Shown in pieces: positions 216 to 36,219 of a stretch of DNA of 40,756 bases (its first letter is position 1; each line of letters begins with the position of its first letter). The notes beneath the pieces were generated by a model. The model ran no database searches, was not told the DNA's origin, and was given only the letters and a program-made list of their open reading frames with translations. The DNA lies in the NCBI RefSeq assembly GCF_021287045.1, contig NZ_JAJTBG010000020.1, positions 1 to 40,756 of the forward strand. The letters run 5' to 3'. This DNA comes from Oryzomicrobium sp. Lineage in GTDB: Bacteria > Pseudomonadota > Gammaproteobacteria > Burkholderiales > Rhodocyclaceae. Position numbers and translations under genes: made by a program.

Positions 216-240
216 GAAACTCGGCTACTGGCGCGGACAT
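216..240 (+). repeat. REP-like element copy 1
   Basis: Contains CTACTGGCGCGGACA, the core of a repeat family found about ten more times between genes in this window. It lies in the AT-rich gap 184-404, which otherwise holds only short 10-bp direct repeats (CGCCAGACCA at 352-375 and TCAGGCCG-type units at 385-411) next to the stop of the following gene. Confidence 0.6.
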
Positions 241-404
241 TTGATTTTTTTCTGTAGAAACGTATTAATTTTTTTCATGTATCGCCTGCGTGGCAGCCTC
301 AAGCTGCGAGTTTCCCCGTCCCGCAGCTGCACCGAGAGGCGGTGCCCGGTTGCGCCAGACCACGCCAGACCACGCCGAACCCCATCAGGCCGGATCAGGC
401 CGCG

Positions 405-1610
405 TCAGGCCGTGGCGTGGGCGGTGCCGGCCTCACCCTCGCGCAGGGCCAGTTGTTGGCGCAGGTGCTTGAGCGAGGGGGTGACGATGGCCACGAAGTA
501 GGCTTCGCGCAGGCGGCGCTGGGCGGTGGCGTTGCGCAGGTAGCCCCGGGCGCCCTGGTGCAGCATGGCGGCCTGGGCGGCGCGCAGGGACAGTTCGCCG
601 CCGGCCAGGCGCAGGCGCAGGATGTCGGTGAGCAGCTCGGCCTGGGCCGCGCCGTCGGGCACCGTGTCGGCAAGCTCGGCCAGGCGGCGGGTTTCGCTAC
701 GGGCGGCGGCCAGCACCCGGCGCAGGTCGTCGGCCTGGTCGTCCTCGAAGCGGTTGATGTGCTGGTGGGTGCGGGCGGTGCCGTCCACCAGGCGGATGCA
801 GTCTTCCACCAGTCCCAGGCCCATGCCCAGCTGGGCCAGGATCATGCCGGGCTGGATGCGTTTGAGGTAGTCGGCGGCGCAGTCCGGGTGGGCCAGCACC
901 CGGGCGTCGTCGATGCGCACGTTGCGGAACTGGCAGGCGAAGGTGCGGGTGCCCTCCAGGGCGGTGAAGTTGGCCCCGTCGGCGAGCTTGAAGCCGGGCT
1001 GGCCGCAGTCCACGGCGAAGAAGACCAGCCCGCCGTCCCCATCGTCGCCCTCCACCGGGCAGCCGGTGACGAAGACGTGGTCCGGCCCCAGGTTGGACAC
1101 CCAGGGCAGGGTGCCGTTGATCTCGTAGCCGCCTTCGACGCGCCGGGCGCCGAGCAGGAAGCGCTCGATCCGGCAGCAGGCCTTGAAGGTGTTGGACAGC
1201 CCGGTGCCGCCCAGGCGCCGGCCTGCCGCCAGGTCCGGCAGCAGTTCGGCTTGCAGGGCGGCGTTGTCGCAAAGCTGGAGGTAGCGCACGCAGGCGGTCT
1301 GGCACCACACGGCGAAGGCGGTGGACAAACAGGTTTCGCCCACCCGGGCCATGATGGCGATGGTCTCGGCCAGGCCGCTGCCGCCCTGCCGCCAGGCGCC
1401 GCCCCAGGCCGGCGCCGCCACCCGGGCGTAGCCGCCCAGGCGGCCCAGTTCGCGCAGGAAGTCTTCCGGGTATTCCCCGTCCTGGTCGATCCGGTTGACC
1501 CGGGGCGCCAGCTGGCGGGCGATCAGGGCGTCGAGGGCGTTCAGATCGACGCCGGGGATTGCCGTGGGCAGGTCGGTGGCACGGGTGGAAGAGGCGGCGG
1601 AGGCGGTCAT
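405..1610 (-). CDS. Acyl-CoA dehydrogenase-like flavoprotein
   Basis: A 401-residue protein of the acyl-CoA dehydrogenase fold. It has an N-terminal helical domain, a middle beta domain (about 120-240, with TGLSN and a hydrophobic strand pattern around VFFAVD) and a C-terminal helical domain with the ARGYLRNATAQRRLREAYF segment near 360. Relatives next to sulfonate/nitrate-type ABC importers include the SfnB/DszC-like group, flavin-dependent enzymes acting on organosulfur compounds rather than acyl-CoA. It is the last gene of an operon whose first genes include a regulator and importer, 43 bp after the permease stop. A flavin reductase gene lies upstream of the operon and could supply reduced flavin. 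Family is secure; the substrate is unknown and sulfur scavenging is inferred from context only. Confidence 0.8.
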   Translation of the reverse strand: MTASAASSTRATDLPTAIPGVDLNALDALIARQLAPRVNRIDQDGEYPEDFLRELGRLGGYARVAAPAWGGAWRQGGSGLAETIAIMARVGETCLSTAFAVWCQTACVRYLQLCDNAALQAELLPDLAAGRRLGGTGLSNTFKACCRIERFLLGARRVEGGYEINGTLPWVSNLGPDHVFVTGCPVEGDDGDGGLVFFAVDCGQPGFKLADGANFTALEGTRTFACQFRNVRIDDARVLAHPDCAADYLKRIQPGMILAQLGMGLGLVEDCIRLVDGTARTHQHINRFEDDQADDLRRVLAAARSETRRLAELADTVPDGAAQAELLTDILRLRLAGGELSLRAAQAAMLHQGARGYLRNATAQRRLREAYFVAIVTPSLKHLRQQLALREGEAGTAHATA

Positions 1611-1653
1611 GGCGGGTCTTTCGTGAAACGGGGGAGGGCGGGAAGGGCGAAGC

Positions 1654-2484
1654 TCAGGCCCCGGCCCAGCGCCGGTGGGCCTGGCGGGCCAGGCAATCGA
1701 GCAGGAAGCCGAGCAGGCCGATGAACAGGATGGTGGCCATCAGCTCGCCGTAGGCCAGCCGGTCCCGGGTGTCGAGGATGAAGTAGCCCAGGCCCGCGTC
1801 CACGCCGAGCATTTCGGCAGGCACCAGTACCACCCAGATCAGGCCGATGGCCAGGCGGATGCCGGTGAGCAGGTGGCTGGCGATGGCCGGGGCCACCACC
1901 CGCCACAGCCGCTCGCGGCGGTTGGCTCCAAGGCTGTCGGCCAGGGTCAGCCATTGGGGGTCGATGGCGGCGATGCCGGCGGCCACGTTGAGCACGATGG
2001 GCCACACCGCGGCGCACACCAGCAGGAAGACCACCGGGGCGTCCCCCACCCCCAGGGCCATCACCGCCAGGGGCATCCAGGACAGCGGCGAGATCATGCG
2101 CAGGAACTGGAAGACCACCGAGGTGGCCTGCTCGAAGCGGCGCAGGGTGCCCACCAGTAGGCCCAGGGGCACCCCAGCCAGCAGGGCGAGCAGCAGCCCC
2201 AGGCCGACCCGTTGCAGGCTGACCCGGGCGTGGTGCCAGATCTCGCCGCCGTGCCACAGGGACTGGGCGGCGCGCCAGGTGTTTTCCGGCGAGAAGCGCC
2301 CGGCCATCAGGCCGAGGGGCGTGTCCCGCCCCAGGCTGTGGACCGCCAGCCACCACAGGGCGCCGCTGGCGGCCAGCCCCAGGAGGGGCCAGCCGGCCAG
2401 GCGGATGCCCTGTGCGGCGAGGCGGATGGCGGCCGTGGTCGCGGCCGGGGCCGCGCCGCCGTCCGCCGGAGCGAAGCGGCTCAT
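1654..2484 (-). CDS. ABC transporter permease, SsuC/NrtB/TauC type
   Basis: A 276-residue inner-membrane permease of the nitrate/sulfonate/taurine importer family, with several hydrophobic segments (around 25-50, 95-115, 130-185, 210-230 and 250-265). The EAA-like loop conserved in binding-protein-dependent permeases reads DSLGANRRERLWRVVAPA near residue 190. The ATG at 2484 is preferred over a much longer open frame because it overlaps the stop of the binding-protein gene as ATGA, the usual sign of translational coupling. It works with the ATPase at 3721-4548 and the binding protein at 2481-3710. Confidence 0.9.
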   Translation of the reverse strand: MSRFAPADGGAAPAATTAAIRLAAQGIRLAGWPLLGLAASGALWWLAVHSLGRDTPLGLMAGRFSPENTWRAAQSLWHGGEIWHHARVSLQRVGLGLLLALLAGVPLGLLVGTLRRFEQATSVVFQFLRMISPLSWMPLAVMALGVGDAPVVFLLVCAAVWPIVLNVAAGIAAIDPQWLTLADSLGANRRERLWRVVAPAIASHLLTGIRLAIGLIWVVLVPAEMLGVDAGLGYFILDTRDRLAYGELMATILFIGLLGFLLDCLARQAHRRWAGA

Positions 2485-3710
2485 GCCTGGAGGGTCTCGC
2501 TGCGCACGTACTTCTCGGGCAGGCCGAAGGCCTTCAGGCCGCCCACCGAGGCCACCGCCTTGCGCACGAAGCGGTCGTCCACCAGGTCCTTGGCCACGGC
2601 GGCCGGGTCCAGGGTGGCGAGGAAGCCGTTGTCGCCTTCGAGCTGGGTGTGCTTGAGCAGCTTCACCAGTTGCTCGGTGTAGGAGGGGAAGGGGTAGGGC
2701 TGGAAGTCGATGCGCGCTTCCTTCCACTCCTTGTGGCGGATGGCCCCCTCGGCGATGTAGCGCTGCTCTAGCTCCGGGTTGTTCACCAGCACCCGCTCCA
2801 GCACCGGCAGGGGGAAGGGGGTGTATTTGCCCGGGCCGTCCTTGGCCAGCAGCTGGGCGCCTTCCTGGCGGTGGTCGCGCAGCCAGTGCTGGGCCTTGAC
2901 CACGGCGTTGACCACCTTCTGGGACCACTCGGGCCGGTCGTTCAGGTCCCGCTCGTGCATGGTCACCACGCAGCAGGCGTGGTCGCGCCACACGTCGCCG
3001 GTAAAGCGCAGGATGCGACCAATGCCGTTAGTCTCGGCGGCGGCGTTGAAGGGCTCGGCGACGATGAAGCCGGCGATCGCCCCGTTGGCCAGGGCCGGCC
3101 CCATGTCTGCCGGGGCCATTACCGCCAGGGCCACCTCGTTGGGCTTGAGGGCGCCGGTGGGCTTGGTCGCCACGGTCAGGCCGTTCTCGCGCAGCAGGTG
3201 TTGCAGCACCACGTTGTGGATCGAATACCAGAAAGGCACGCCGACCTTCTTGCCGCCCAGGTCCTTCACCTGCTGGATGCCCGGGGCCACGGTCAGGGCC
3301 GAGCCGGCCATGTGGTTCCAGGCCACCACCTTGGCCGGGAAGCGGCTGCCGTAGCGGGCCCACACGGTCATGGGCGAGAGCAGGTGCACCACGTTCACCT
3401 GGCCGGCCATGAAGGCTTCGACGATCTGGGCCCAGGAGCGGAACAGGCGCGGCGCCTCGACCTTGAGTCCTTCGGCCTCGAACAGCTGGCGGGCGTGGGC
3501 GATCAGCAGGGGGGCGCCGTCGGTGATGGGCAGGTAGCCGATGCGCACCGGGTCGTCCGGATTGGCCGCCCGGGCCAGGCCGGGCAGGGCCACGGCGCCG
3601 GTGAGCAGGGCGGAGAGACGCAGGAAGTCGCGGCGGGAGAGGGACTGGCGGTCGAAGGCGGCGTCGGGGTCGGCGGCGTGGGCCGGGGCGGTCGGGTCGA
3701 GATCGAGCAT
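2481..3710 (-). CDS. Tat-exported ABC substrate-binding protein, NrtA/SsuA-like
   Basis: A 409-residue periplasmic binding protein. The N-terminus carries a twin-arginine signal, SRRDFLRL at about 25-32, followed by a hydrophobic stretch ending in LARA. The mature part starts near VRIGYLPITDGAPLLIA, typical of NMT1/NrtA/SsuA-like proteins that bind nitrate, sulfonates, taurine or related small ligands. Export in folded form by Tat is unusual for these proteins but known in NrtA relatives. The gene starts 10 bases after the ATPase stop and overlaps the permease start by 4 bases, so it is translated within the same operon. The ligand cannot be read from the sequence. Confidence 0.88.
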   Translation of the reverse strand: MLDLDPTAPAHAADPDAAFDRQSLSRRDFLRLSALLTGAVALPGLARAANPDDPVRIGYLPITDGAPLLIAHARQLFEAEGLKVEAPRLFRSWAQIVEAFMAGQVNVVHLLSPMTVWARYGSRFPAKVVAWNHMAGSALTVAPGIQQVKDLGGKKVGVPFWYSIHNVVLQHLLRENGLTVATKPTGALKPNEVALAVMAPADMGPALANGAIAGFIVAEPFNAAAETNGIGRILRFTGDVWRDHACCVVTMHERDLNDRPEWSQKVVNAVVKAQHWLRDHRQEGAQLLAKDGPGKYTPFPLPVLERVLVNNPELEQRYIAEGAIRHKEWKEARIDFQPYPFPSYTEQLVKLLKHTQLEGDNGFLATLDPAAVAKDLVDDRFVRKAVASVGGLKAFGLPEKYVRSETLQA

Positions 3711-3720
3711 GGAGCGGGCC

Positions 3721-4548
3721 TCAAGTGGAGTGGATACAGGGGCGGGCGGCGGCCGGGGCCGCCAGGGTGTCGAGGATTTCCTCGCGCAGGGCGTTGAGGG
3801 CGGCGGAGCGGTGCAGGCGCGGCGCCCGGCCGTCCGGGCGCCATTCGCCGACGATGCGCGCCGGGTGGCCGGCGAGCAGCAGCACCCGGTCGCCGATGCG
3901 CAGGGCCTCGTCGATGTCGTGGGTAACCAGCAGGGCGGCGGCCTGGCGCTGGTGCGCCAGTTCCACCAGCAGGTCCTGCATGGCCTCCCGGGTTACCGCG
4001 TCGAGGGCCGAGAAGGGCTCGTCCAGGTAGACGATTTCCGGGTCCCGGGCCAGGGCGCGGGCCAGGGCGACGCGCTGAGCCATGCCGCCGGAAAGGGCCT
4101 GAGGGCGCTTGGCGGCGTGGCCAGCCAGGCCCACCTGGGCCAGGGCCTTGTTCACCCGGGCGGCCTGGACTGTGCGGGATTCCTTGGCGCGGCAGGCGAA
4201 ATCCAGGCCGAAGGCCACGTTGCCGGCCACGGTCAGCCAGGGCAGCAGGGCCGGGGACTGGAACACCACGCTGGCCGCCGCCGCCCGGGCCTTGCCGCTG
4301 CTATTACCGGTGGCCTCGCCGTGCAGGCGCACCTCGCCGGCCCCGGGCTCGGCCAGGCCGGCCAGCAGGCGCAGCAGGGTCGATTTGCCGCAGCCCGAAG
4401 CGCCGATCAGGCAGACGATCTCCCGCCGCCCGATGGTCAGGTCCACCCCGGCGAACACCGGCTGGGGGCCGTAGGCGAAGGACAGCCCCCGGGCGTCGAG
4501 CAGGGGGGCGTCGTCCAGGGGGAAAGGGGCGGGGGCGGCGGCGCGCAT
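3721..4548 (-). CDS. ABC transporter ATPase, SsuB/NrtD/TauB type
   Basis: A 275-residue ATPase subunit. Walker A is GASGCGKST, the Q-loop region reads VVFQSPALLPW, the signature is LSGGMAQRVALARAL, and Walker B is IVYLDEPFSALD, with the switch His in LLVTHDIDEAL. Order and spacing are those of the sulfonate/nitrate importer family. I chose the ATG at 4548 rather than an upstream one at 4644, which would overlap the previous gene by about 94 bases. With 4548 the gap to the preceding stop is 2 bases. It energises the permease at 1654-2484. Confidence 0.9.
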   Translation of the reverse strand: MRAAAPAPFPLDDAPLLDARGLSFAYGPQPVFAGVDLTIGRREIVCLIGASGCGKSTLLRLLAGLAEPGAGEVRLHGEATGNSSGKARAAAASVVFQSPALLPWLTVAGNVAFGLDFACRAKESRTVQAARVNKALAQVGLAGHAAKRPQALSGGMAQRVALARALARDPEIVYLDEPFSALDAVTREAMQDLLVELAHQRQAAALLVTHDIDEALRIGDRVLLLAGHPARIVGEWRPDGRAPRLHRSAALNALREEILDTLAAPAAARPCIHST

Positions 4549-4550
4549 GG

Positions 4551-5123
4551 TCAGGCGGCGCCGTTCTCGCCCGGCGGCTGCCAGCGGTAGGCCGCCAGCT
4601 CCGGGTTGAGTTCGGTTTGGGCCAGGGAATTGCTGAAGTTGCACAGGGTGGCCAGACTGACGCCGAGGATCACTTCGAGCACCTGCTGCTCGCCATAGCC
4701 GGCGGAGAGGAAGGCGTCCAGCTCGGCGCCGGTGACGGCGCCGCGGCGGGCGATCACCGCCCGGGTGAACACGGCCAGGGCGTCGAGTTTGGCGTCGGGC
4801 AGGGGCTGTTGCCGGCGCAGGGCCTCCACCAGGTCCTCGGCCAGCTTGCCCTGCTTGTAGGCGATGGCGGTGTGGCCGGCGACGCAGAAGGTGCAGCCGT
4901 GGATGACGGCGGCGGTGATCTGCACGGTTTCCCGCTCGGCCAGGGTGAGGCTGCTGCGGCTGTTGATCTCGCCCACGGTCAGGTAGGTTTCCAGGGCCGT
5001 CGGGGCGTTGGCCAGCATCCCCAGCAGGTTGGGGATGAAGCCGTTCTTGGCCAGGGCCTTTTCCAGATAGGGGCGGCTGGCTTCCGGGGCCGATTCGAGG
5101 GTTTGCAGGGTGAGGCGGGACAT
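4551..5123 (-). CDS. Carboxymuconolactone decarboxylase/AhpD-like protein
   Basis: A 190-residue protein of the AhpD-like family with the redox pair in HGCTFCVAGHT (about 75-85), where two Cys flanking two residues and a following His form the peroxidase or disulfide centre of AhpD. The upper start at 5207 is rejected. The ATG at 5123 has a Shine-Dalgarno-like AAAGGAAGC just before it and fits the family length. It is the first gene of the importer operon proper, followed 2 bases later by the ATPase. AhpD-like proteins commonly accompany such importers together with flavoenzymes. A role in handling peroxide or a reactive intermediate from the flavoenzyme is inference. Confidence 0.85.
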   Translation of the reverse strand: MSRLTLQTLESAPEASRPYLEKALAKNGFIPNLLGMLANAPTALETYLTVGEINSRSSLTLAERETVQITAAVIHGCTFCVAGHTAIAYKQGKLAEDLVEALRRQQPLPDAKLDALAVFTRAVIARRGAVTGAELDAFLSAGYGEQQVLEVILGVSLATLCNFSNSLAQTELNPELAAYRWQPPGENGAA

Positions 5124-5262
5124 GGGGCTTCCTTTGTGGAGTGCGGACGGTGGGCAGGGCGTCGATACGCTACGGGGATTGTCCCGGCCGGGCCGGGATG
5201 GCCTCAATGCGTGGCCGTCCGCATCTTTTGCTCGTTCGTCTCGCCCGGCCGTGGCCGGGCGC

Positions 5263-6198
5263 TCAGGCCGCCTGGGGCGTTGCGGCCTCGGGCTGGCAGC
5301 GGCGCCGGTAGGCCCCGGGGAGCACGCCGGTGGCCTTCTTGAAGGCCCGGGAGAAGGCGGCGTCCGATTGGTAGCCGACCTGTTCCGCCGCCCGGGACAG
5401 GCTCGTGCCTTGACGGATCAACTGGCTCGCCACCTTCATGCGCAGTTGCAGCAGGAACTGGCTGGGGGAGGTGCCGCACACGTGCTGGAAGCGCTTGAAG
5501 AAGGTGGCCCGGGACATGTGGGTCAGATCGGCCATGGCTTCCACGGTCCACTCCCGTTCCGGGGCGGCGATCAGGGCGTCGAGCAGGGGGGCGAAGCCGG
5601 GCTGGGCGAGCAGCGCCCACAGCCCGGCGCTCACTTCCCGGCGCCGGCACAGGTGGCGGACGACGTAGAAGAAGAGCAGCTCCACCAGCCGCGCCACCAG
5701 GGGCGAGGGGGCGTCGCCGGCCCGTTCCGCCTCGGCCAGGATCAGGTCGAAGAGGGGCCGGGCCTCGGCCAGTTCGCCGTCCCCGTCGGGAATCACCACG
5801 TAGTCGGGGAAGGAGCCGAGCAGCAGGTCGGTGAGCCGAGTGCGGAATTCGAAGAAGCCGCAGGCCAGGGCCACGCTGCCGGGGACGGAGCGGTCCAGGG
5901 GCGCCATGGCCGCGCGGGGCGCGTCGGCGGCCCGGGCCGGGTCGGCCTCGGGGCTGAGCACGTGGGGCACGTCGCGCAGAAAGAACACCGCGTCGCCGGC
6001 CTGGAGGGGGCGGCGCTCGCCGGTTTCGGGCAGGTGCAGCCAGCACCGGCCGTTGAGCACCACGTGGAAGCCGGCCCGGGAAAGGCCGGTGATCGAAGCC
6101 TTCCAGGTGCCGCAATACTGGCCCAGGTGAAACAGGGTGGTATCCAGGTCCAGGCTGCCGAGCAGCCAGTGGATGAGCCGGTCCTGACGTGACGACAT
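5263..6198 (-). CDS. AraC family transcriptional regulator
   Basis: A 311-residue regulator with an N-terminal cupin-type sensing domain (AraC_binding_2/cupin_6-like, with HVVLNGRCWLHLP and GDAVFFLRDVPHVL at about 45-85) and a C-terminal pair of helix-turn-helix motifs (about 205-300; the second has SRAAEQVGYQSDAAFSRAFKK). The ATG at 6198 is chosen over a TTG at 6210 because GGGGAG lies 3 bases before it. It precedes the AhpD-like and ABC genes on the same strand with a 139-bp gap, so it is probably the local activator. No operator repeat was identified in the gap. Confidence 0.9.
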   Translation of the reverse strand: MSSRQDRLIHWLLGSLDLDTTLFHLGQYCGTWKASITGLSRAGFHVVLNGRCWLHLPETGERRPLQAGDAVFFLRDVPHVLSPEADPARAADAPRAAMAPLDRSVPGSVALACGFFEFRTRLTDLLLGSFPDYVVIPDGDGELAEARPLFDLILAEAERAGDAPSPLVARLVELLFFYVVRHLCRRREVSAGLWALLAQPGFAPLLDALIAAPEREWTVEAMADLTHMSRATFFKRFQHVCGTSPSQFLLQLRMKVASQLIRQGTSLSRAAEQVGYQSDAAFSRAFKKATGVLPGAYRRRCQPEAATPQAA

Positions 6199-6313
6199 GG
6201 CGCTCCCCAAAGCCGGAGGGCCCGCGCGGCGGAGCGGCGGGCGGCGGTTGAACAGGGGGGCATGGTAGGCAGGGGCGGCCCGGGGGTTAAGGAAGAAAAA
6301 CCGATATGGTTAT

Positions 6314-6347
6314 GCCCGCCTGGAAAATGGGTTGTGAGCAGGCGGGC
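6314..6347. other. Hairpin between flavin reductase and AraC genes
   Basis: Inverted arms GCCCGCCTG (6314-6322) and CAGGCGGGC (6339-6347) enclose a 16-base loop. On the minus strand they are followed by a short AACC/GGTT stem and a run of T (about 6295-6310). It follows the flavin reductase stop (6424) in that gene's direction, so it may end that transcript. Confidence 0.35.
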
Positions 6348-6423
6348 AGGTGAGTAGAGGCTGCGGGGCGTCGGCCGGGTGGGCAGCCTAGGGGATGGAT
6401 GCCGGCGCCCGGGGGGGGCTGCC

Positions 6424-6960: not shown

Positions 6961-7116
6961 GGCCGCCTCCGTCGCGTTGTCGGTGCCTGGGGGCATTGTG
7001 GACGGCGGCGGGCACGGCGCCAAGGCGGGCGGCCCGCCGTGGGGGCGGAGCTGGGAGGGGCGAGGCTGGAGCGGGGCTACGGATCAGACCCACGCCAAGC
7101 CCGGATTAGAGGCGAA

Positions 7117-7917: not shown

Positions 7918-7920
7918 GGC

Positions 7921-8304: not shown

Positions 8305-8306
8305 TT

Positions 8307-8849: not shown

Positions 8850-8883
8850 GTATGACTCCCCAGGGGACGCGGTATTTTAATGG

Positions 8884-21362: not shown

Positions 21363-21433
21363 GCCCGGAAACCCAATACTGGCGCGGACCTTCACTATAT
21401 GCCCATGAAAGTCCGCGCCAGTCCTTGGGTTTG
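21363..21433. repeat. REP-like inverted pair
   Basis: A left copy with AACCCAATACTGGCGCGG (from 21370) and a right, inverted copy (AAAGTCCGCGCCAGT, 21408-21422, continuing to 21432) form a long imperfect hairpin with about 23-bp arms and a 15-base loop. The arms share ACTGGCGCGGAC with the other copies in this window. Confidence 0.8.
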
Positions 21434-21440
21434 GCCCTGC

Positions 21441-21474
21441 CTGCCCGAAGATGCCCTACTGGCGCGGGGTTTGG
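21441..21474 (+). repeat. REP-like element
   Basis: CTGCCCGAAGATGCCCTACT followed by GGCGCGGGGTTTGG. It shares a GAAGATGCCCTACTGGCGCG block with the copy at 26451-26482 and lies just after the inverted pair, in the 297-base gap between the terminator and the AhpD-like gene. Confidence 0.8.
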
Positions 21475-23510: not shown

Positions 23511-23542
23511 TGTCTGGAAAGCCACGACTGGCGCGGGGTTTG
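23511..23542 (+). repeat. REP-like element
   Basis: TGTCTGGAAAGCCACGACTG then GCGCGGGGTTTG, 16 bases after the MocR stop. It matches the inverted copy at 34111-34146 over about 26 of 27 bases. Confidence 0.8.
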
Positions 23543-23628
23543 CTAGCCAACGTGGTGTATCACCATCTCAAAAGAACATGAATGCTGATACCTGGGAACC
23601 TAGAGGGCGCCGAAATCCATCAGTAGCA

Positions 23629-25486: not shown

Positions 25487-25489
25487 AGC

Positions 25490-26203: not shown

Positions 26204-26410
26204 TGCCTTTCTCCACGGGATGGAACGTTGGGCCCCGCTGCGGCGGTGTCCAATGGGTTGGGCAATGGGATCGCTGCCGGGTTGCGCCCGGTGGGGCGGC
26301 TGTATTGTCGGCAATGGCGATGTCGTGGGCAGCTACCGGGGGCACGGTATCTATGCGGCACTGAAAGGGGATGGCCAAACCCCAGGATTGGCGGGGTGCT
26401 TCAGGCCATG

Positions 26411-26482
26411 GTGCTGGAACGCCAGATTCGGCGCGGTATTCGGAAGGGGATGCCTGAAGATGCCCTACTGGCGCGGTGTTCC
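26411..26482 (+). repeat. Two REP-like elements in tandem
   Basis: Copy one, 26411-26441, has CTGGAACGCCAGATTCGGCG; copy two, 26451-26482, has GAAGATGCCCTACTGGCGCG. A degenerate third stretch (CCAGGATTGGCGGGG) lies near 26380. They occupy the 478-base gap 26204-26681, which otherwise holds no gene I can support. Confidence 0.75.
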
Positions 26483-26681
26483 AAAGAACGGGGCGTAGCC
26501 GCCGGTCGCTACGGTGCAAGGCCGTAACCGGGCCCGGCGTTGCACCGGGCTGTAGCACAGGGCCTGAAAATGGCGGGGGCGGGATGCTTGGTACCGGACG
26601 GTCATGCCGGCCGGGCCCGATCCCGCCCCCTATACACGGAGTGCCGCGGGGACGGCGCCCCGCGGGTGGTTGCGCTGGACG

Positions 26682-29369: not shown

Positions 29370-29678
29370 AGCTGAACTCTGAGCTTTTCCACGGAACGCC
29401 CGTCGTGCGAGGGGCGCTGATTATTGTCGGCGCTGCCCGCCCAAGCCCCGGAAAATGGGAATTGTGCGTTGCAGCAATCTACCATAACCGGGGAATAGGG
29501 CAACGGGCCATGACGTCGTTTTGTTTGCGCCAGATCAAGAGGCGCGGGACTGTCATAATCCGCCCCCTGTTTCCGGCGGGTTGGGGTTTCAGTCGTGCTT
29601 CGGGGCGGGGTTCCCGCCGTGGGCCGCTGCCGGGCCCGACCGTCGGCTCGAAAGTGGTTTGAATTTCGGATTGTGCCA
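29370..29678. other. Divergent intergenic region, no gene seen
   Basis: This 309-base gap lies between the Pat-like gene (minus) and a methyltransferase gene (plus) and should hold both promoters. A sequence TTGCG-CCAG-ATCAA near 29526 matches only one half of an FNR-type site. No RNA or repeat is recognised. Confidence 0.4.
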
Positions 29679-30254
29679 ATGATTACGGATAATTTCTCTC
29701 CTGCCGCCGCTACGGCGCCCTCGCCCTGGGTGGCGCGCTTCGCCCCGCTCGTTCCGGCCGGTGGCACCGCCCTCGACCTGGCCTGCGGCGGCGGCCGCCA
29801 CAGCCGCCTCCTGGCCGGCCTGGGCCACCCGGTGCTGGCGGTGGATCGGGACGCCGCAGCCCTGGCGTCCCTGGCCGGCGTGGCGGGGGTGACGACCCTG
29901 GCCGCCGACCTGGAAGGCCCGCTGGATGCGCCCTGGCCCCTGGCCGGGCGGCGCTTTGCCGGCATCGTCGTCGCCAACTACCTGCACCGTCCGCGCCTGC
30001 CGGACCTGGCGGCCCTGCTCGACGCCACCGGGGTACTCATCTACGAAACCTTCATGGTAGGCAACGAGCGCCACGGCAAGCCGTCCCGCCCCGATTTCCT
30101 GCTGCGCTCCCAGGAACTGCTGGCCTGGGCCCAGGCCCTGGGCTGGCGGGTGGTGGCCTTCGAGGAGGGGGAGGTAGGAGGCGCGGCGGGCCAGCGCCCG
30201 GCCGTGGTGCAGCGCCTGTGCGCCGTGGCCGGCGAGGTGGCGGTGCGGCTGTAG
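29679..30254 (+). CDS. Class I SAM-dependent methyltransferase (TehB-like)
   Basis: A 191-residue methyltransferase. Motif I is ALDLACGGGRHSRLLAGLGH (about 27-46), the acidic residue ending the second strand is in VLAVDRD, and GIVVANYLHRPRLPDL gives motif IV. The form resembles TehB/YeeZ-type small methyltransferases. The ATG at 29679 starts just before the fold; an upstream ATG at 29595 would add an Arg-rich stretch without support. Substrate unknown. Confidence 0.8.
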   Translation: MITDNFSPAAATAPSPWVARFAPLVPAGGTALDLACGGGRHSRLLAGLGHPVLAVDRDAAALASLAGVAGVTTLAADLEGPLDAPWPLAGRRFAGIVVANYLHRPRLPDLAALLDATGVLIYETFMVGNERHGKPSRPDFLLRSQELLAWAQALGWRVVAFEEGEVGGAAGQRPAVVQRLCAVAGEVAVRL

Positions 30255-30515
30255 CCTGCCCACCGGTTCCGTAGCCACGGGGCGGGACGATAGCGCTTCC
30301 CGGCGGGCCCGCCTATCCGGGAAACCCCTCGGCGCGGCATCCCGCCGCCCCCCGCTTGCTTCGCCCGTCCCGGTTGCTCTGGTCGTTCCCGTTGCCCACG
30401 TTGCTCCCCGGCAAGGACGGCCTGCCAGAAGGAGGATAATGGCCGGCTTTGCTCCGGCCGGCGCCTGCACCTCGGCCTCCACTCGGTCTCCACTCGGCCT
30501 CCATCGTCTGCCGCC

Positions 30516-31391
30516 ATGCCTTACCTGATCTTCATCACCTTCGTCTGGGCCCTGTCCTTCAACCTGATCGGCGAATTCATCGCCGGGCGCGTGGACAGCG
30601 ACTTCGCCGTGCTCACCCGGGTGGTGCTGGCCGGCGCCGCCTTCCTGCCCTTCACCCGCTGGCGCGGCGTGCCGGCGCCCCTGCTGTGGGGCACCGTGGC
30701 CGCCGGGGCGCTCCAGTTCGGCGTCACCTACCTGTGTCTGTACCGTTCCTACGGCTACCTGACGGTGCCCGAGGTACTGCTGTTCACCATCTTCACCCCG
30801 GTCTACGTGACCCTGCTCGACGACCTGCTGGCACGGCGCTTCAACCCTTGGGCCAGCCTCGCCGCCCTGGTGGCGGTGGGCGGAGCGCTGATCATCCGTT
30901 ACGGTGGCCTGAGCGGCCACTTCCTCACCGGCTTCTTCCTGCTGCAACTGGCCAACCTGACCTTCGCCGCCGGCCAGGTGGGCTACCGCCGGGTGGTGGC
31001 GCGCTATCCGAGCCCCTGGCCGGCCTACCGCACCTTCGGCTTCTTCTTCCTTGGCGCCCTGGCGGTGGCCCTGCCGTCGTTCCTGATCTTCGGCAATCCG
31101 GCCAAACTGCCCGCCACCGGCCTGCAATGGGGCGTGCTCGCCTTCATGGGACTGGGCGCCTCGGCCCTGGGCTTCTACTTCTGGAACAAGGGCGCCTGCC
31201 AGGTGGATGCGGGCACCCTGGGCATCATGAACAACATGCACATCCCCGCCGGCCTGGCCCTGAGCCTGCTGGTGTGGCGCCACGAAACCGACCTGGGCCG
31301 GCTGCTGGCCGGCGGCGCGGTGATGGGGGCGGCCCTGGCGCTCAATGCCTGGGGCCGGCGGCGCCAGGCGGCCCGGCTGGCGGCGGCCTGA
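30516..31391 (+). CDS. EamA/DMT family membrane transporter
   Basis: A 291-residue inner-membrane protein with about ten hydrophobic helices and the two-repeat layout of the drug/metabolite transporter superfamily. Motifs include FVWALSFNLIGEFI at the start and LGASALGFYFWNKGACQVDA in the second half. Members export amino acids or small metabolites. It follows the methyltransferase gene by 261 bases on the same strand. Substrate not determinable. Confidence 0.85.
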   Translation: MPYLIFITFVWALSFNLIGEFIAGRVDSDFAVLTRVVLAGAAFLPFTRWRGVPAPLLWGTVAAGALQFGVTYLCLYRSYGYLTVPEVLLFTIFTPVYVTLLDDLLARRFNPWASLAALVAVGGALIIRYGGLSGHFLTGFFLLQLANLTFAAGQVGYRRVVARYPSPWPAYRTFGFFFLGALAVALPSFLIFGNPAKLPATGLQWGVLAFMGLGASALGFYFWNKGACQVDAGTLGIMNNMHIPAGLALSLLVWRHETDLGRLLAGGAVMGAALALNAWGRRRQAARLAAA

Positions 31392-31459
31392 GGGAAGGGG
31401 GATCGGGCGTGCGGATTGCCTTGATTCTGAAACCCCGCGCCCAGCCTGGCTTTCCGCAT

Positions 31460-31535
31460 GGCATGGCTGGAGAGCCGCGCCAGCTCTTGCGTTCCACGAT
31501 GCCTGCCTGAAAGTCAGCGCCTGGCGCGGACTTTG
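31460..31535. repeat. REP-like inverted pair
   Basis: CCGCGCCAG (31475-31483) and CTGGCGCGG (31521-31529) are the cores of a reverse and a forward copy, 37 bases apart. They lie in the 258-base gap where the EamA gene and mnmH converge. Confidence 0.7.
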
Positions 31536-31649
31536 GCGGGGTGGGCCTGCCGCTCCCCCTGTCCTTCAGGTGAACGTGGGCTGCTGGGCAAGCCACGGTG
31601 GCGGACGCAGCGGCAGCTGGTGGCGCCTGCTAGAACAATCCGACCCGCG

Positions 31650-32729
31650 TCAGGCCGTGACCGTGGCGTCCGCAGCGTCCTGGGTGTCGGCCGCCAGGAT
31701 GCTGGCGGCCAGGGCGGCGATGCCGGTTTCCGACAGGTCGTCGGTGGCGAATTCCCGGGAGGTGGCCAGGCCGGTGTAGTTGCGGTCCTGGGAGGCGGCG
31801 TAGAGGGGGTCGTAGTGGCCGGTGAGCAGTTCTTCCACCAGGGCGCGGAAGTTGCCGGCCCGGGCCAGCTCGCTCCAGCGGGCAATGGTCTCGCCGCCGC
31901 GCAGGGCCTTGAGGCCGCCCAGGCGCTGCACCAGCCATTCCGGATCGGCCAGGAAGTAGTCGTAGTCGCGCAGCAGGAAGTCCACCCGGGCCGGCACGCT
32001 GGCCGACACCACCCGGCAGGCGCCGCCGCGGATGGCGGTGATCAGGGCTTCGGGCACGTGCACCTTGCCGATCTTGCGCGATTCGGCCTCCACGTACACC
32101 GGCCGGGCCGCGTCGAACCCCTGGAGGGCCTGGCGCAGCCCGGTCTCGAACCATTTCTGGCTGGGCTGGGGGGCGCCGGGCAGCACGCCCAGCACCGAGC
32201 CCTTGTGGCAGGCCAGGGCTTCCAGGTCGAGCACCTGGGCGCCGGCGGCGGCCAGGTGGTGCAGCACCCGGCTCTTGCCGCTGCCGGTGGCGCCGGCCAC
32301 CACCTTCCAGGCAAAGCGCGGCGGCAGCGTTTCCAGGTCGGCGACCACCATGTGACGGTAGGCCTTGTAGCCGCCTTCGAGTTGCTGGGCGTTCCAGCCG
32401 ATGGAGCGGAACACGGTGACCATGGCGCCGGAGCGCATTCCGCCCCGCCAGCAGGCGATCAGGGGCTTCCAGCCCTTGGGCCGGTCGAGGAAGCGTTCGC
32501 GCAGGTGGGCGGCGATGTTGGCCGAGATGTAGGCGGCGCCGAGCTTCTTGGCCTCGAAGGGAGACACCTGCTTGTACAGGGTGCCCACCTCGGCCCGCTG
32601 CTCGTCGTTCAGCACAGGACAGTTGATGGCGCCGGGGATGTGGTCTTCGGCGAATTCGAGGGGGGAGCGGACGTCGATGATTTCGTCGAATTCCGCAAGC
32701 TGTGCTACGGTGGCAACCCCGTTTTTCAT
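31650..32729 (-). CDS. mnmH: tRNA 2-selenouridine synthase
   Basis: A 359-residue protein with an N-terminal rhodanese domain (about 1-125) whose catalytic Cys is in IACWRGGMRSGAM, and a P-loop domain with GATGSGKSRVLHHLA (about 147-161). This is MnmH/SelU/YbbB, which geranylates 2-thiouridine at the tRNA wobble position and replaces it with selenium using selenophosphate. The ATG at 32729 is chosen because it begins just before the rhodanese fold; longer frames enter the gap to selD. It is divergent from selD, which makes its selenium donor. Confidence 0.93.
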   Translation of the reverse strand: MKNGVATVAQLAEFDEIIDVRSPLEFAEDHIPGAINCPVLNDEQRAEVGTLYKQVSPFEAKKLGAAYISANIAAHLRERFLDRPKGWKPLIACWRGGMRSGAMVTVFRSIGWNAQQLEGGYKAYRHMVVADLETLPPRFAWKVVAGATGSGKSRVLHHLAAAGAQVLDLEALACHKGSVLGVLPGAPQPSQKWFETGLRQALQGFDAARPVYVEAESRKIGKVHVPEALITAIRGGACRVVSASVPARVDFLLRDYDYFLADPEWLVQRLGGLKALRGGETIARWSELARAGNFRALVEELLTGHYDPLYAASQDRNYTGLATSREFATDDLSETGIAALAASILAADTQDAADATVTA

Positions 32730-32811
32730 GGACTTAGATTCCGTGGCGTGAAGCCCGCCAATTACGTGGCCGACTTGGTTCGGCTCGGTGGGACGCCCGG
32801 GAGAGGACATC

Positions 32812-33864
32812 ATGGAAGTCAAACTGACGCAATTTTCCCATGGCGGCGGCTGCGGCTGCAAAATCGCCCCCGCCGTCCTGCAAAAAATCCTCGCCACCAT
32901 GCCTCCCGGGGTGATTCCCCCGGACCTGCTGGTGGGCACCGAATCGAGCGACGACGCGGCGGTGTACCGGCTCAACGACAGCCAGGCCCTGGTGGCCACC
33001 ACCGACTTCTTCACGCCGATCGTCGATGACCCCTACGACTTCGGCCGCATCGCCGCCACCAACGCCCTGTCCGACGTCTACGCTATGGGCGGCACCCCGG
33101 TGCTGGCCCTGGCCCTGGTGGGCATGCCCCTCGACAAACTGCCCCTGGACGTGATCGGGCGCATCCTCGAAGGTGGCGCCAGCATCTGCCGCGAGGCCGG
33201 CATTCCCGTGGCCGGCGGCCACTCCATCGACGTGCTGGAACCGATCTACGGTCTGGTCGGCCTGGGTGTGGTCCATCCCGAGCGGGTCAAGCGCAACGAC
33301 CGGGCCCAAGCCGGCGACGTGCTGATCCTGGGCAAGCCCCTGGGCGTGGGCATCCTCTCGGCTGCGCTGAAGAAGGGCAAGCTGACTCCCGAGGGCTACC
33401 AGACCATGGTGCGCTGGACCACCACTCTCAACAAGGTGGGCGCCACCCTGGCCGGGCTGGACGCGGTCCATGCCATGACCGACGTCACCGGCTTCGGCCT
33501 GGCCGGCCACCTGTTGGAAATCTGCCGCGGCTCGACGCTGGATGCCCGGGTACGCTTCGCCGACCTGCCCCTGATCGACGAGGCCGTGACCCACGTCAAG
33601 GACGGCATTGCCACCGGCGCTTCCACCCGCAACTGGGCCGGCTACGGCGACCAGGTGGAACTGGCCCCGGGCATGGACGCCAACGGCTGGGAACAGAAGC
33701 TGGTGACCGATCCCCAGACCTCCGGCGGCCTGCTGGTGGCCTGCGCGCCGGACCAGGTCGAAGCGGTGCTGGCAACCTTCCGCGAGGCCGGCTTCGCCGA
33801 GGCCGCCGCCATCGGCGAGCTGGCCGCTACGGCAAGCGACGCGCCGCGGCTGCGGCTTGTTTGA
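32812..33864 (+). CDS. selD: Selenophosphate synthetase
   Basis: A 350-residue enzyme that makes selenophosphate from selenide and ATP. HGGGCGCKIAP (about 8-18) holds the catalytic Cys and Lys; this copy uses Cys, not selenocysteine. TESSDDAAVYRL and TDVTGFGLAGHLLE are further family motifs. The ATG at 32812 has GAGAGG upstream. The divergent mnmH 82 bases away is the likely user of the product. No selA, selB or selC is in the window. Confidence 0.95.
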   Translation: MEVKLTQFSHGGGCGCKIAPAVLQKILATMPPGVIPPDLLVGTESSDDAAVYRLNDSQALVATTDFFTPIVDDPYDFGRIAATNALSDVYAMGGTPVLALALVGMPLDKLPLDVIGRILEGGASICREAGIPVAGGHSIDVLEPIYGLVGLGVVHPERVKRNDRAQAGDVLILGKPLGVGILSAALKKGKLTPEGYQTMVRWTTTLNKVGATLAGLDAVHAMTDVTGFGLAGHLLEICRGSTLDARVRFADLPLIDEAVTHVKDGIATGASTRNWAGYGDQVELAPGMDANGWEQKLVTDPQTSGGLLVACAPDQVEAVLATFREAGFAEAAAIGELAATASDAPRLRLV

Positions 33865-34110
33865 CTGAGGGAAGCCTCTGCTGGACGTGCCCAGCGCTGA
33901 AAAGCGCGCCACCAGAGCACCCAGGACGCCAAGGGGGCACCAGGGAAACCGGCTGAACCGCGAGCAACCAGCGTTGCAGAGGCGCGGCGGGAAGGCAGGT
34001 GTCTATGCAGTGGTCAGTTTTTGTGCCCGGCCTGGAAAGGCGCGCCAATACTCGATCTACAAGGCACCTTCCCGCTAAGCCAATACCGGCGAGGCTCTCG
34101 GCCGGCATAC

Positions 34111-34146
34111 CTTCAAACGCCGCGCCAGTCGTGGCTTTCCGGGCAG
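34111..34146 (-). repeat. REP-like element, reverse orientation
   Basis: On the minus strand it reads CCGGAAAGCCACGACTGGCG followed by CGGCGTTTG, almost the same as the copy at 23511-23542. A degenerate stretch with GGCGCGCCAATACT lies about 60 bases before it. Confidence 0.8.
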
Positions 34147-34280
34147 TGCCTCAACCCAGGCGCCCCCATGTGCCCTTCTCCCCCGCCGAGCAACGCAGGC
34201 CGGGACGGAAAAGGGCGAGGACTGTTTGAGGCCGCAGGCCGAGTTCCGCAGCCCCCGTCCCGGGCGAGTAGCGCAGGGGA

Positions 34281-34302
34281 CCCCCAGCGCTTTTGCTGGG
34301 GG
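34281..34302. other. Hairpin with 8-bp perfect arms
   Basis: CCCCCAGC and GCTGGGGG with a GCTTTT loop, inside the mosaic repeat region. It is not followed by a T-run. Confidence 0.7.
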
Positions 34303-34328
34303 CGGGGAAGCGGGCACGGCGTTCTTTG

Positions 34329-34358
34329 GCTACTTTCTGTCGCCGGACAGAAAGTAGC
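34329..34358. other. Hairpin with 13-bp perfect arms
   Basis: GCTACTTTCTGTC (34329-34341) and GACAGAAAGTAGC (34346-34358) with loop GCCG. The perfect pairing in otherwise non-coding DNA suggests a structured repeat or RNA rather than chance. Confidence 0.8.
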
Positions 34359-34543
34359 TCGCCGTCAGGCGAAACCCGGCGGTTCAGATTGTGCCGGCGC
34401 CAGGTGAGGGCAACGCTGAAAAGCGAACCACTAGGGCACCACGGGACACCAAGGAAAGCCGATTCGCCGTTCGACGTGGTACCCCTCGGTGTCCTGGCGG
34501 TTCGCCTCGCCTTTACCTCGCCCGAGGCAAGGATGTCGTTCCC

Positions 34544-35296
34544 TTATTTGAGCAGGGGCGCCAGCGCCGGCCAGACGTTGTCGAGCAGCCGGCCCTGGGC
34601 CTCGGCCACCGGGTGCAGGCCGTCGGCCTGGAACAGGCGGCGGTCGCTCGCCACCTGATCGAGCAAGAAGGGCGGCACCGGCAATTTTTCCGCCTTGGCC
34701 ACCTCATCGAAGGCCGCCCCCACGGTGCGGGCGTAGGCCCCGTAGTTGGGCGGCAGCTCGATGCGCACCAGCAGCACCTTGGCGCCGGCGGCCTTGGCCG
34801 CCCGGGTCATGGTCACCAGGTTCTTCTTCATCTCGCCCACTGGCAGGCCGCGCAGGCCGTCGTTGGCGCCCAGCTCGATCACCACCACCGCCGGCTTGTG
34901 TTTCGCCAGCAGCGGCGGCAGACGCGATACGCCGCCGGCCGTGGTCTCGCCGGAAATGCTGGCGTTGAGCACGGTGTAGCCCGGCGCCTTGGTTTTCAGC
35001 CGCTTGGCCAACAGGGACGGCCAGGCCGCATCTTGGCGGATACCGTAGCCGGCGGACAGGGAATCGCCGAACACCAGCACGGTGCGCGGCGCGGCCCCCG
35101 TCGCCAGGGCGGGGGCGGGCAGGGCGATTCCGATCAGGGGCAGGGCCGCCAGCAGGATCAGGCGCAGCGCGGCGCGGCGGGCGGAATGGCCCGGCCTGGG
35201 GCGCTCGGCCTCGTCTGCCAGCCGGCGCCCGATCCGGGCGATAATGCCGGGGTTCCGCCCGCTCCGGGCCGAGGGGCGATCCGCCCCGCCGTTCAT
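34544..35296 (-). CDS. tesA: GDSL-type arylesterase/thioesterase (TesA-like), exported
   Basis: A 250-residue SGNH hydrolase. An N-terminal membrane-targeting segment (LILLAALPLIGIALPAPALA) is followed by block I VLVFGDSLSAGYGI (Ser), block II SGETTAGG, block III ELGANDGLRG and block V DGLHPVAEAQ (Asp, His). This is the E. coli TesA type, a periplasmic esterase with lysophospholipase and thioesterase activity. The start is uncertain: ATGs at 35296, 35305 and 35317 are possible; 35296 has AAGGA at the best distance. The divergent neighbour is a YbbA-like ATPase, the same arrangement as tesA-ybbA in E. coli. Confidence 0.88.
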   Translation of the reverse strand: MNGGADRPSARSGRNPGIIARIGRRLADEAERPRPGHSARRAALRLILLAALPLIGIALPAPALATGAAPRTVLVFGDSLSAGYGIRQDAAWPSLLAKRLKTKAPGYTVLNASISGETTAGGVSRLPPLLAKHKPAVVVIELGANDGLRGLPVGEMKKNLVTMTRAAKAAGAKVLLVRIELPPNYGAYARTVGAAFDEVAKAEKLPVPPFLLDQVASDRRLFQADGLHPVAEAQGRLLDNVWPALAPLLK

Positions 35297-35315
35297 CCTC
35301 TTCATGTCCTTATCC

Positions 35316-36056
35316 ATGGTTACTGCCAGTTCCCTGTTGGAAGCCGCCACGCCTTCCGGCGCGGCTGAAGCATCGGCGTCGGCGCCGGCCCCGGTGATCG
35401 AGGCGGTGGTGTTGTCGAAGACCGTGACCACCGCCGAAGGCGCGCCGTTGCCCATTCTGCACGAGATCAGCTTTGCCGTGAGGCCGGGGGAAACGGTGGC
35501 GGTGGTGGGGGCGAGCGGCTCGGGCAAGTCCACCCTGCTCGGCCTGCTGGCCGGCCTGGACACCCCCAGCGGCGGCCAGGTGCGCCTGGCCGGCACCGAC
35601 CTGGCGCCCTTGTCCGAGGACCGCCGGGCGATCCTGCGCGGCCAGCATCTGGGCTTTGTTTTCCAGTCGTTCCAGCTGCTGCCGGCCCTGTCGGCCCTGG
35701 AGAACGTGATGCTGCCCCTGGAGCTGGCCGGCCGGCGCGACGCCGCGGCGGTGGCCCGGGGCTGGCTGGCCCGGGTGGGGCTGGAGCAGCGCCTTTCCCA
35801 CACCCCCAAGCACCTGTCCGGCGGCGAGCAGCAGCGCGTCGCCATCGCCCGGGCCTTCGCCACCTCGCCCCGGCTGGTGCTGGCCGACGAGCCCACCGGC
35901 AACCTGGACGCGGCCACCGGCGAGAAGATCATCGACCTGATGTTCGCCCTCAACGCCGACGAGGGCACTACCCTGATCCTGGTGACCCATGACGAACACC
36001 TGGCGGCCCGCTGCTCCCGGGTGTTGAAGCTCAACGCCGGGCGGCTGGAAGGCTGA
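35316..36056 (+). CDS. ybbA: YbbA/LolD-like ABC transporter ATPase
   Basis: A 246-residue ATPase with Walker A VGASGSGKST, Q-loop FQSFQLLPALSALENVMLPL, signature LSGGEQQRVAIARAF and Walker B LVLADEPTGNLD. These belong to the MacB/LolD class, and its place opposite tesA points to YbbA. The ATG at 35316 lies within the same 25 bases as the candidate esterase starts, so the two promoters must lie inside the 5' ends or one start is further in. The usual large permease partner (YbbP) does not follow; the next 404 bases have no gene. Confidence 0.85.
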   Translation: MVTASSLLEAATPSGAAEASASAPAPVIEAVVLSKTVTTAEGAPLPILHEISFAVRPGETVAVVGASGSGKSTLLGLLAGLDTPSGGQVRLAGTDLAPLSEDRRAILRGQHLGFVFQSFQLLPALSALENVMLPLELAGRRDAAAVARGWLARVGLEQRLSHTPKHLSGGEQQRVAIARAFATSPRLVLADEPTGNLDAATGEKIIDLMFALNADEGTTLILVTHDEHLAARCSRVLKLNAGRLEG

Positions 36057-36105
36057 ACCGGGGCGGGCTTTCGTTGCCTCCGCCCGCTGTTCCCCCAATT
36101 TGCCG

Positions 36106-36219
36106 CTGCCCGGAAACCTAGGCGGGGCGCGGACCTTCGGGCATGGCATTCGGAAAGTGGCGCCGATGCTCGATGCGCAGAGCGGTTGCCTGGAGATCGG
36201 CTACTGGCGCGGGGTTTGA
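36106..36219 (+). repeat. Two REP-like elements
   Basis: The first (36106-36138) has CTGCCCGGAAACCTAGG then GGGCGCGGACCTTC, close to the left arm at 21363. The second (36187-36219) has GCCTGGAGATCGGCTACTGG then CGCGGGGTTTGA. They sit in the 404-base gap (36057-36460) between ybbA and ackA. Confidence 0.75.

Follow-up and report, generated by a model that had tools for sequence, protein, structure and literature searches.

Bacterial intergenic repeats of high copy number are usually regarded as parasites driven by RAYTs that may or may not serve the host, and a role past gene ends has been proposed for the topological-insulator or gyrase-binding BIMEs of Escherichia coli. The REPs and BIMEs of the GTAG and CGTC superfamilies are described as high-copy, intergenic and gathered in mixed-orientation clusters (PMC3733652, PMC2817692), with the majority of GTAG REP dimers lying 20-100 bp apart (PMC3733652). 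BRE, a betaproteobacterial repeat of about 90 bp found with bprJ of Bordetella, is described as usually intergenic and sometimes clustered, with up to 8 units in a tandem row, directly adjoining or separated by a few bases (Hot et al. 2011, PMC3110155). Spaced intergenic motif pairs have been reported with a fixed length, variable spacers and unknown function; for one of them, GCTTAT(N)5AAGCG of Acidovorax ebreus, 44 convergent, 4 divergent and 59 co-oriented cases are given (PMC5217627).

The family reported here was found in a 40,756-nucleotide stretch of an Oryzomicrobium sp. genome (the window). Its sites are short and variable and occur in hundreds, mostly beyond gene ends, in this bacterium and in a sister species. 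Like BIMEs and REPs it is high-copy, intergenic and arranged in mixed-orientation clusters, but it has no tag, no covarying unit hairpin and no fitting RAYT, and its modules, at most three together, keep an exact 40-bp pitch whatever their orientation. BRE is similarly betaproteobacterial, usually intergenic and sometimes clustered, and is set apart, as described, by its ~90-bp unit and near-contiguous tandem rows. The spaced motif pairs share fixed spacing, variable letters between and a preference for convergent gaps; in their published description, however, they consist of two short half-motifs and form no multi-module lattice.

A short module in hundreds of copies

A module was present at every place where a first-pass annotation of the window had listed a repeat copy: 216-240, 21363-21474, 23511-23542, 26411-26482, 31460-31535, 34111-34146 and 36106-36219. 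The consensus proposed there, GGAAA-CC, proved too narrow: column counts of aligned modules give a left half of GGARA followed by a variable word, within a 27-29-bp pattern of GGARA-nC-NNNN-ACTGGCGCGG-nGTTTG. Five false training units were removed from 80 when the module set was built. Genome-wide counting bore out the existence of a numerous family, far above chance. The source genome (G000) contains 164 matches with at most two mismatches, against 11 for the reversed pattern, and the near-exact core (at most one mismatch) occurs 88 times in it and 94 times in the complete sister genome (G001), against 0 in either control. Modules of at least 10 bits numbered 258-261 in 480 kb of stretches, the majority of them fetched for module content, and 0 in the reversed sequence. 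A model search at E≤10, in which 150 of 4370 and 3830 candidates were scored, returned at least 168 and at least 180 matches. The copy number exceeds 100 per genome, as in REP families.

Modules occupy three places on a 40-bp grid

Scoring of the window with a PSSM gave seven element sites (a-g), all carrying modules. The singles and pairs annotated earlier are real copies, but five of the seven sites are complete triples on an exact 40-bp grid. Element a (215..243, + strand, centre 229, PSSM 27.3, at the 99.97th percentile of the window) and element c (23515..23543, +, centre 23529, PSSM 38.6) are single modules without a lattice partner. Element b comprises modules at 21366..21394 (+, centre 21380, PSSM 28.7), 21406..21434 (-, centre 21420, PSSM 29.3) and 21446..21474 (+, centre 21460, PSSM 36.7), and all three modules of element d lie on the + strand, at 26375..26403 (centre 26389, PSSM 18.3), 26415..26443 (centre 26429, PSSM 13.6) and 26455..26483 (centre 26469, PSSM 33.1). 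Element e starts with a module at 31428..31456 (-, centre 31442, PSSM 28.0), followed by two that are also modules in G001, at 31468..31496 (-, centre 31482, PSSM 19.8) and 31508..31536 (+, centre 31522, PSSM 28.7). In element f, a degenerate module at 34073..34101 (+, centre 34087, PSSM 9.2, 99.96th percentile) stands between those at 34033..34061 (-, centre 34047, PSSM 27.4) and 34113..34141 (-, centre 34127, PSSM 38.9), the latter being the same module in G001. Element g likewise has a degenerate middle module, at 36151..36179 (-, centre 36165, PSSM 8.2), in whose place a module was detected in G001; it is flanked by 36111..36139 (+, centre 36125, PSSM 14.2) and 36191..36219 (+, centre 36205, PSSM 42.3), the best-scoring module of the window and again the same in G001. 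Five of these modules, centred at 26389, 31442, 34047, 34087 and 36165 (the last two degenerate), had been missed in the earlier list of copies. The three-place lattice does not appear in that annotation.

The same geometry was found in the wider sample. After removal from 140 neighbour pairs of 5 in which one module had been seen on both strands, 134 of the 135 neighbours within 100 bp lay 40 bp apart centre to centre, in any orientation, the exception being one pair at 51 bp; modules in 5 pairs with a distance above 100 bp were assigned to separate elements. The 134 on-lattice neighbours (56 -+, 22 +- and 56 tandem) form a mosaic of both orientations as in BIMEs. No more than three places are spanned by 143 of 144 elements, and five by the remaining one; a single place was detected in 47 elements and two in 60. 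Around 211 strong modules, extra modules stood out only at ±40 and ±80, with no signal at ±120, and 36 seemingly solitary strong modules turned out to have degenerate partners at -40 (z 9.0) and -80 (z 6.4). The outer right side ends in G (the GTTTG type) in 102 of 191 cases, against 12 of 78 at inner junctions. A 40-bp pitch does not correspond to an integral number of helical turns, which makes simple same-face contacts unlikely. A different hairpin motif is found at both outer positions of this 40-bp grid, with a spacing of 80 bp in all four G001 pairs and of 80, 81 and 82 bp in three G000 pairs; a fourth place in G000 (C19) stands without a listed partner.

Elements lie mostly past the 3' ends of genes

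The location outside genes noted earlier agrees with the genes called in the window. Of 163 elements in the wider sample, however, 19 overlap a predicted CDS, 142 are intergenic and 2 lie at stretch edges, a largely extragenic location as in REPs. Genes were called with a simple hexamer caller, and the one called at about 34544-35533 in the window is probably a miscall. Element density is biased upward in 13 G001 stretches that were chosen by synteny to face G000 elements, and in the window, whose choice followed from the finding itself; the comparison of gap types is less affected. In that comparison an element was present in 17 of 33 convergent, 12 of 114 tandem and 3 of 38 divergent gaps. 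This convergent preference, together with the 60 of 77 tandem-gap elements that lie nearer the 3' end of the upstream gene, agrees with the position, mostly past 3' ends, described in the first-pass annotation. Intrinsic terminators were detected in 12 of 58 convergent gaps with an element and in 17 of 29 without (p = 0.0007), in counts that pool two related species. At the strictest T-run setting the numbers were 7 of 58 and 8 of 29 (p = 0.13), in G000 alone the depletion was not significant at three of five settings, and tandem gaps showed none (8 of 76 with an element, 19 of 168 without).

Relationship to RAYT-driven repeats

The REP/BIME behaviour recognized earlier holds for the high copy number, the intergenic 3'-end location and the mosaic orientations, but not for the hairpin, the tag or a fitting RAYT; the family is only superficially REP-like. 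The unit is not an imperfect palindrome, and the clusters, lacking REP units, are not BIMEs in composition. Inspection of column counts, the alignment and the end consensus of 75-269 modules revealed no GTAG/GTGG or CGTC tag as defined in PMC3733652. An ordinary REP/BIME family that has since lost or broken its RAYT transposase, with the lattice as inherited BIME geometry, would nevertheless be high-copy, intergenic, mixed in orientation and genus-restricted, and G000 contains one stop-split RAYT relative (NF047646, 66.8 bits, below the cut-off of 80) that could be such a remnant. We consider this origin unlikely. The 3.3-kb locus of the relative is module-free, and G001, despite its near-exact copies, has no match to PF01797 (Y1_Tnp) or NF047646 (RAYT). 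No module of at least 8 bits was found in 15 distinct Y1_Tnp loci (16 records), mostly loci of genomes that lack the repeat. A RAYT gene flanked by the repeat, as expected of a REP family, was thus found in neither genome, and a RAYT partner was rejected. Also against a lost transposase, the 34 complete triples fall into four orientation classes (15, 14, 4 and 1) that share one pitch. Among 42 G000 elements without an earlier partner, 11 were open to an empty-site test by synteny; no empty site was seen in these (11/11) or in the testable window loci (3/3). For comparison with MITEs, which have terminal inverted repeats, target duplications and empty sites, the outer ends of the elements are distinct and no empty site was seen at these loci.

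Folding of modules and elements

Structures acting in RNA, in which inverted modules would fold in the transcript and terminate it or protect the mRNA, are suggested by the position of the elements past 3' ends and by the good folding of those with inverted neighbours (mean z -3.1 to -6.2 in eight of nine orientation classes). Several results make this explanation improbable. Folding is weak in tandem and in single elements (mean z -0.3 to -2.2), and hairpins would neither need a fixed 40-bp pitch nor permit any orientation. The inverted pairs, thought earlier to be able to fold, showed no surplus complementarity: their words matched no better than shuffled ones, both for -+ (150 versus 152 expected, 59 pairs) and for +- (99 versus 94.6, 30 pairs, P 0.22), and a selected hairpin is unsupported. 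Within single modules, some dyad symmetry exists between the invariant arm letters (70.6% of named pairs are standard, versus 29-64% when slid), but column shuffles gave 71.8% and a covariation of 0.230 versus the observed 0.215. RNAalifold predicted 0 pairs on aligned modules, and a single-unit hairpin was rejected for want of covariation. A known RNA family was rejected as well, the window having 0 Rfam matches at gathering scores.

Spacing is kept while sequence drifts

Of 32 orthologous module spacings, 30 are the same in both species; in the remaining two the difference is exactly 40 bp and exactly 80 bp. The set for spacings and indels consisted of 37 pairs, for most of which the G001 side had been retrieved because of its modules, and 12 added pairs, 11 chosen by synteny and one (L062/L292) picked by a listed hit; four of 41 ortholog pairs were left out for lack of two-sided synteny. 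Neighbouring intergenic DNA accumulated 4.0 indel events per 100 aligned bp, and the compared spans total 1560 bp. Within elements the pairwise alignments contain 60 indel events (1.8 per 100 bp), most of which are probably alignment noise that cancels out, given that the distances from module to module do not change. Identity within elements (0.840) is close to that of neighbouring intergenic DNA (0.836). Spacing preserved between sites whose intervening letters have changed points to a functional element bound by protein, as opposed to a usual repeat driven by a transposase.

Across 83 orthologous modules, the GGCGCGG positions are 96-100% identical and none is flipped. The left-half words of 10 modules differ at three or four letters, versus 3.0 expected, and 42 are unchanged, versus 27.5 expected. 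Word swapping is only suggested by these numbers because the independent-site expectation ignores rate differences between modules; part of the excess of strongly changed words may be rate variation. Copies within one genome are far diverged (mean identity 0.60-0.64) with their spacing intact. An origin of the lattice by recent block duplication was rejected, since an identity of 80% or more was found in only 5 of 1344 pairs of 69-nt stretches, and the 11-nt linkers exceed by a small margin what composition alone would give (0.31-0.40 versus 0.27-0.31).

Ancient non-autonomous mobile elements, now inert and with a geometry that has not yet decayed, could explain the defined outer ends, the 120-bp size and the unexceptional letter identity inside elements, as well as one locus duplicated in G001, where two three-module arrays lie 204 bp apart in place of one in G000. 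Such relics seem a poor fit all the same: at the indel rate of the flanks, neutral decay predicts many spacing changes, whereas the 32 spans changed only by 40 or 80 bp, and it would hardly leave the pitch intact in copies as diverged as those within one genome.

A putative multi-site binding element

We tentatively favour, short of an even chance, a DNA-level multi-site element at gene 3' ends that would be bound by a protein, function like a BIME or insulator and stand outside the RAYT-REP families. The genus-level copy number, the lattice with its three-place limit, the kept spacing and the 3'-end preference were observed directly, as were the lack of any sign of hairpin selection and of a fitting RAYT. 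The bounded chromosomal elements, of up to three modules at 40-bp pitch, would act as DNA. A putative protein with sequence specificity, probably dimeric and indifferent to module orientation, would bind two or three neighbouring modules, and contacts between the bound units would fix the spacing. From its position past 3' ends, in most cases where genes converge, this complex may stop or insulate transcription from both sides, as a roadblock or a topological insulator, a role that would be analogous to that proposed for the gyrase-binding BIMEs of E. coli. A bolder version, which we think rather doubtful, has an undescribed chromosomal protein of the genus assembling at hundreds of gene ends, on as many as three sites with a rigid 40-bp pitch, and taking the place of hairpin terminators by terminating or insulating transcription in both directions, with modules evolving by swaps of left-half words. 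Since both species have retained the spacing although their sequences drift and no transposase fits, the function of the repeat is directly testable; a binder, if there is one, would count as a new factor acting at the gene ends of a bacterial chromosome.

Distribution in other genomes

The comparison with relatives that the first-pass annotation had proposed sets the genus apart: 35 other genera of the family Rhodocyclaceae have core matches at background level only, in contrast to the copies in G001. A species collection, from which records of or near the source genome may be left out, gave 52 stretches with one hit each, many of them probably chance; 20 of the 52 were inspected. The letters GAG-ATC-GGC-TAC-TGG-CGC (EIGYWRG) are used as codons in several Burkholderiales loci and, by eye, in some loci of one further genome (G148), so that some database hits are chance. 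A coding origin of the module was rejected: a pitch of 40 bp is not divisible by three, third positions show no concentration of orthologous change, and stops occur among the words.

In an order sample of 399 genomes, one genus of another family (g97) stands out. Two of its genomes, G148 and G313, have at least 16 and at least 15 matches (16 candidates scored in each), and the extended core is repeated in g97 genomes (15 and 9 times, versus 0 in the control), with no lattice among 25 modules. Similar modules occur in one MAG (L107, L114, L135), and kinship of the g97 and MAG modules to the present family is likely.

Copy number and distribution

The repeat was present at every place in the window listed by the first-pass annotation, and the genome-wide count requested there, made with the core, proved it to be numerous. 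The core ACTGGCGCGGNGTTTG gave 164 matches in the 3.91-Mb source genome (G000) with up to two mismatches versus 11 for the reversed pattern, and 88 versus 0 with up to one mismatch. At the latter stringency 94 matches (control 0) were found in G001, a single 3.53-Mb contig rated 100% complete and the sole congener in the search of 60 relatives. In contrast, counts were 0 to 3 in each of 35 other genera of the family, similar to their controls, and 0 to 5 in another 24 genomes of the order. These near-background counts show that the family is genus-restricted at this core stringency. The sampled stretches (480 kb in all, most of them retrieved because of the modules in them) yielded 288 modules of at least 7 bits compared with 4 in the reversed sequence.

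Each module consists of GGARA, two bases of which the second is usually C, a variable four-letter word, ACTGGCGCGG, one base, and GTTTG or TTTC; the consensus was built on 75 aligned modules, later 269, and GGCGCGG within ACTGGCGCGG is almost invariant. The words are drawn from a limited vocabulary (29 distinct in 184 exact-core modules versus 72 on average in column-shuffled sets). GTTTG-type right ends were seen at 102 of 191 outer ends but at only 12 of 78 inner junctions, which sets outer ends apart.

Modules occupy a 40-bp lattice

Neighbours less than 100 bp apart were spaced by 40 or 80 bp when in the same orientation (++ or −−), by 26 or 66 bp for +−, and by 54 or 94 bp for −+. Module centres thus fall on one 40-bp lattice in any orientation for 134 of 135 neighbours within 100 bp, five double hits on the same module being excluded. 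The sole off-lattice pair, 51 bp apart, is at L225 (G000 contig C9, about 350.5 kb). Around 211 strong modules, extra modules were frequent only at −80 (38%), −40 (61%), +40 (25%) and +80 (10%), with no excess at ±120, and 36 strong modules without a detected neighbour were accompanied by degenerate modules at −40 (z 9.0) and −80 (z 6.4). An element therefore has up to three places. One place was detected in 47, two in 60 and three in 36 of 144 elements, and all three are filled in five of the seven elements of the window. The only element beyond three places, L277 (G001, about 32.6-32.8 kb), has four modules over five lattice places.

A few loci are composite, with a different motif, GCCATCGTCAACSGCGATGGC, at both outer places and one module in the middle. 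These modules between hairpins about 80 bp apart are at L009, L021 and L199 in G000 and at L279, L284 and L289 in G001. The hairpin copies are separated by exactly 80 bp in all four G001 pairs. In G000 three pairs show separations of 80, 81 and 82 bp, and for a fourth place no partner is among the matches listed.

Spacing is retained while letters drift

The window is partly syntenic with G001, in which the places of elements e, f and g are also occupied. For all 11 G000 elements with an anchor on either side, the G001 stretch picked by synteny contained modules, two of these sites having weak modules only (12.8 and 7.2 bits). In the set of 49 anchored elements, the distance from module to module was unchanged in 30 of 32 spans and off by exactly 40 and 80 bp in the remaining two, whereas neighbouring intergenic DNA had 4.0 indel events per 100 aligned bases. 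Weighing against this, letter identity was no higher inside elements (0.840) than in that intergenic DNA (0.836), and the alignments put 60 indel events inside elements (1.8 per 100), which must mostly cancel because the module-to-module lengths are equal. If spacing is under selection, constant length combined with drifting letters is what one would expect to see.

Across 83 orthologous modules, the GGCGCGG positions were 96-100% identical and no orientation flips were found. Ten of the 83 words differed at three or four letters versus 3.0 expected under independent sites; words thus seem to change in blocks, but part of this excess may come from rate variation between modules. Where G000 has the word CCCT, G001 has CCCG at L010, L016, L019 and L030 and GGCT at L015. 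Within one genome, mean identity between elements was 0.60-0.64 and reached at least 80% in 5 of 1344 pairs, so these elements are not recent copies of one another; linkers were slightly above the composition null. L251 (G001, about 2055.5-2055.8 kb) contains two arrays of three modules, identically ordered and separated by 204 bp; the G000 counterpart has a single array.

Hairpins and RAYT genes

Selection of the unit or of inverted pairs as a hairpin found no support, covariation being absent and word matching at shuffle level. The consensus fold of single modules predicted zero pairs, and covariation in the drawable arm pairing was not beyond shuffles, although pairing exceeded slid versions. 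Words of inverted neighbours matched 150 times versus 152 in shuffled pairs for −+ (59 pairs) and 99 versus 94.6 for +− (30 pairs), and foldability therefore looks incidental. The first-pass annotation had also called for a RAYT (REP-associated tyrosine transposase) gene flanked by the same repeat, and none was found in either genome. A search of the complete G001 gave neither a Y1_Tnp nor a RAYT match at E ≤0.001. G000 encodes one relative (L031:1465-1881; contig C9, about 130.2 kb) that scored 66.8 bits, below the cut-off of 80; its frame is interrupted by a stop after 138 codons and then stays open for about 100 more, and its 3.3-kb locus contains no modules. Fifteen distinct Y1_Tnp loci, most from repeat-less genomes, had no module of at least 8 bits.

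Genomic context and a possible role

The description of all copies as lying outside genes held in the window, but predicted coding sequence is overlapped by 19 of the 163 elements in the wider sample, several of them in matching positions in the two species. Among gaps of at least 60 bp in stretches picked for reasons other than their own modules, an element was present in 17 of 33 between convergent genes, 12 of 114 between tandem genes and 3 of 38 between divergent genes; in tandem gaps the element was closer to the 3′ end of the upstream gene in 60 of 77. With the two species pooled, intrinsic terminators were detected in 12 of 58 convergent gaps with an element versus 17 of 29 without (p = 0.0007); with this crude finder, the pooled p was below 0.05 at four of five settings and 0.13 at the strictest. 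Tandem gaps with and without an element showed no terminator difference. The contig opens with tandem 12-bp repeats, AAGGTGGGAAAG then GAGAAGGGGGGC (window 1-115).

A putative DNA-binding assembly on the element would account for the orientation freedom, fixed pitch and three-place limit, and also for length kept without linker conservation and for the absent hairpin selection. The location of elements beyond 3′ ends, together with the scarcity of intrinsic terminators, hints that its role could be roadblock termination or topological insulation. We put this proposal forward tentatively, at slightly less than an even chance.

Known systems and look-alikes

We recognised no description of this family in the open-access papers searched, as judged by titles and abstract openings. 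Judging from partial texts, BIMEs (PMC3733652, PMC2817692) and motifs spaced at a fixed length (PMC5217627) are among the closest in kind; the BRE repeat found with bprJ of Bordetella (PMC3110155) was also compared. The extended core is repeated in g97, a genus of another family of the order (15 in G148 and 9 in G313, control 0), with no lattice found among its 25 modules, and three modules of a similar kind occur in one MAG of the species collection. Some database matches are plain codons: a coding stretch with the letters of the module reads EIGNWRG at L087, L093, L118, L129, L131, L137 and L138, from several Burkholderiales including Comamonas, Acidovorax and Hydrogenophaga, and its resemblance is probably chance. 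Genome G328 has sixteen equal weak matches (19.2 bits) among those listed, for example C10:73-101 and C80:38712-38740 (stretches L293-L295), the majority near contig ends, as if within a repeated mobile element.
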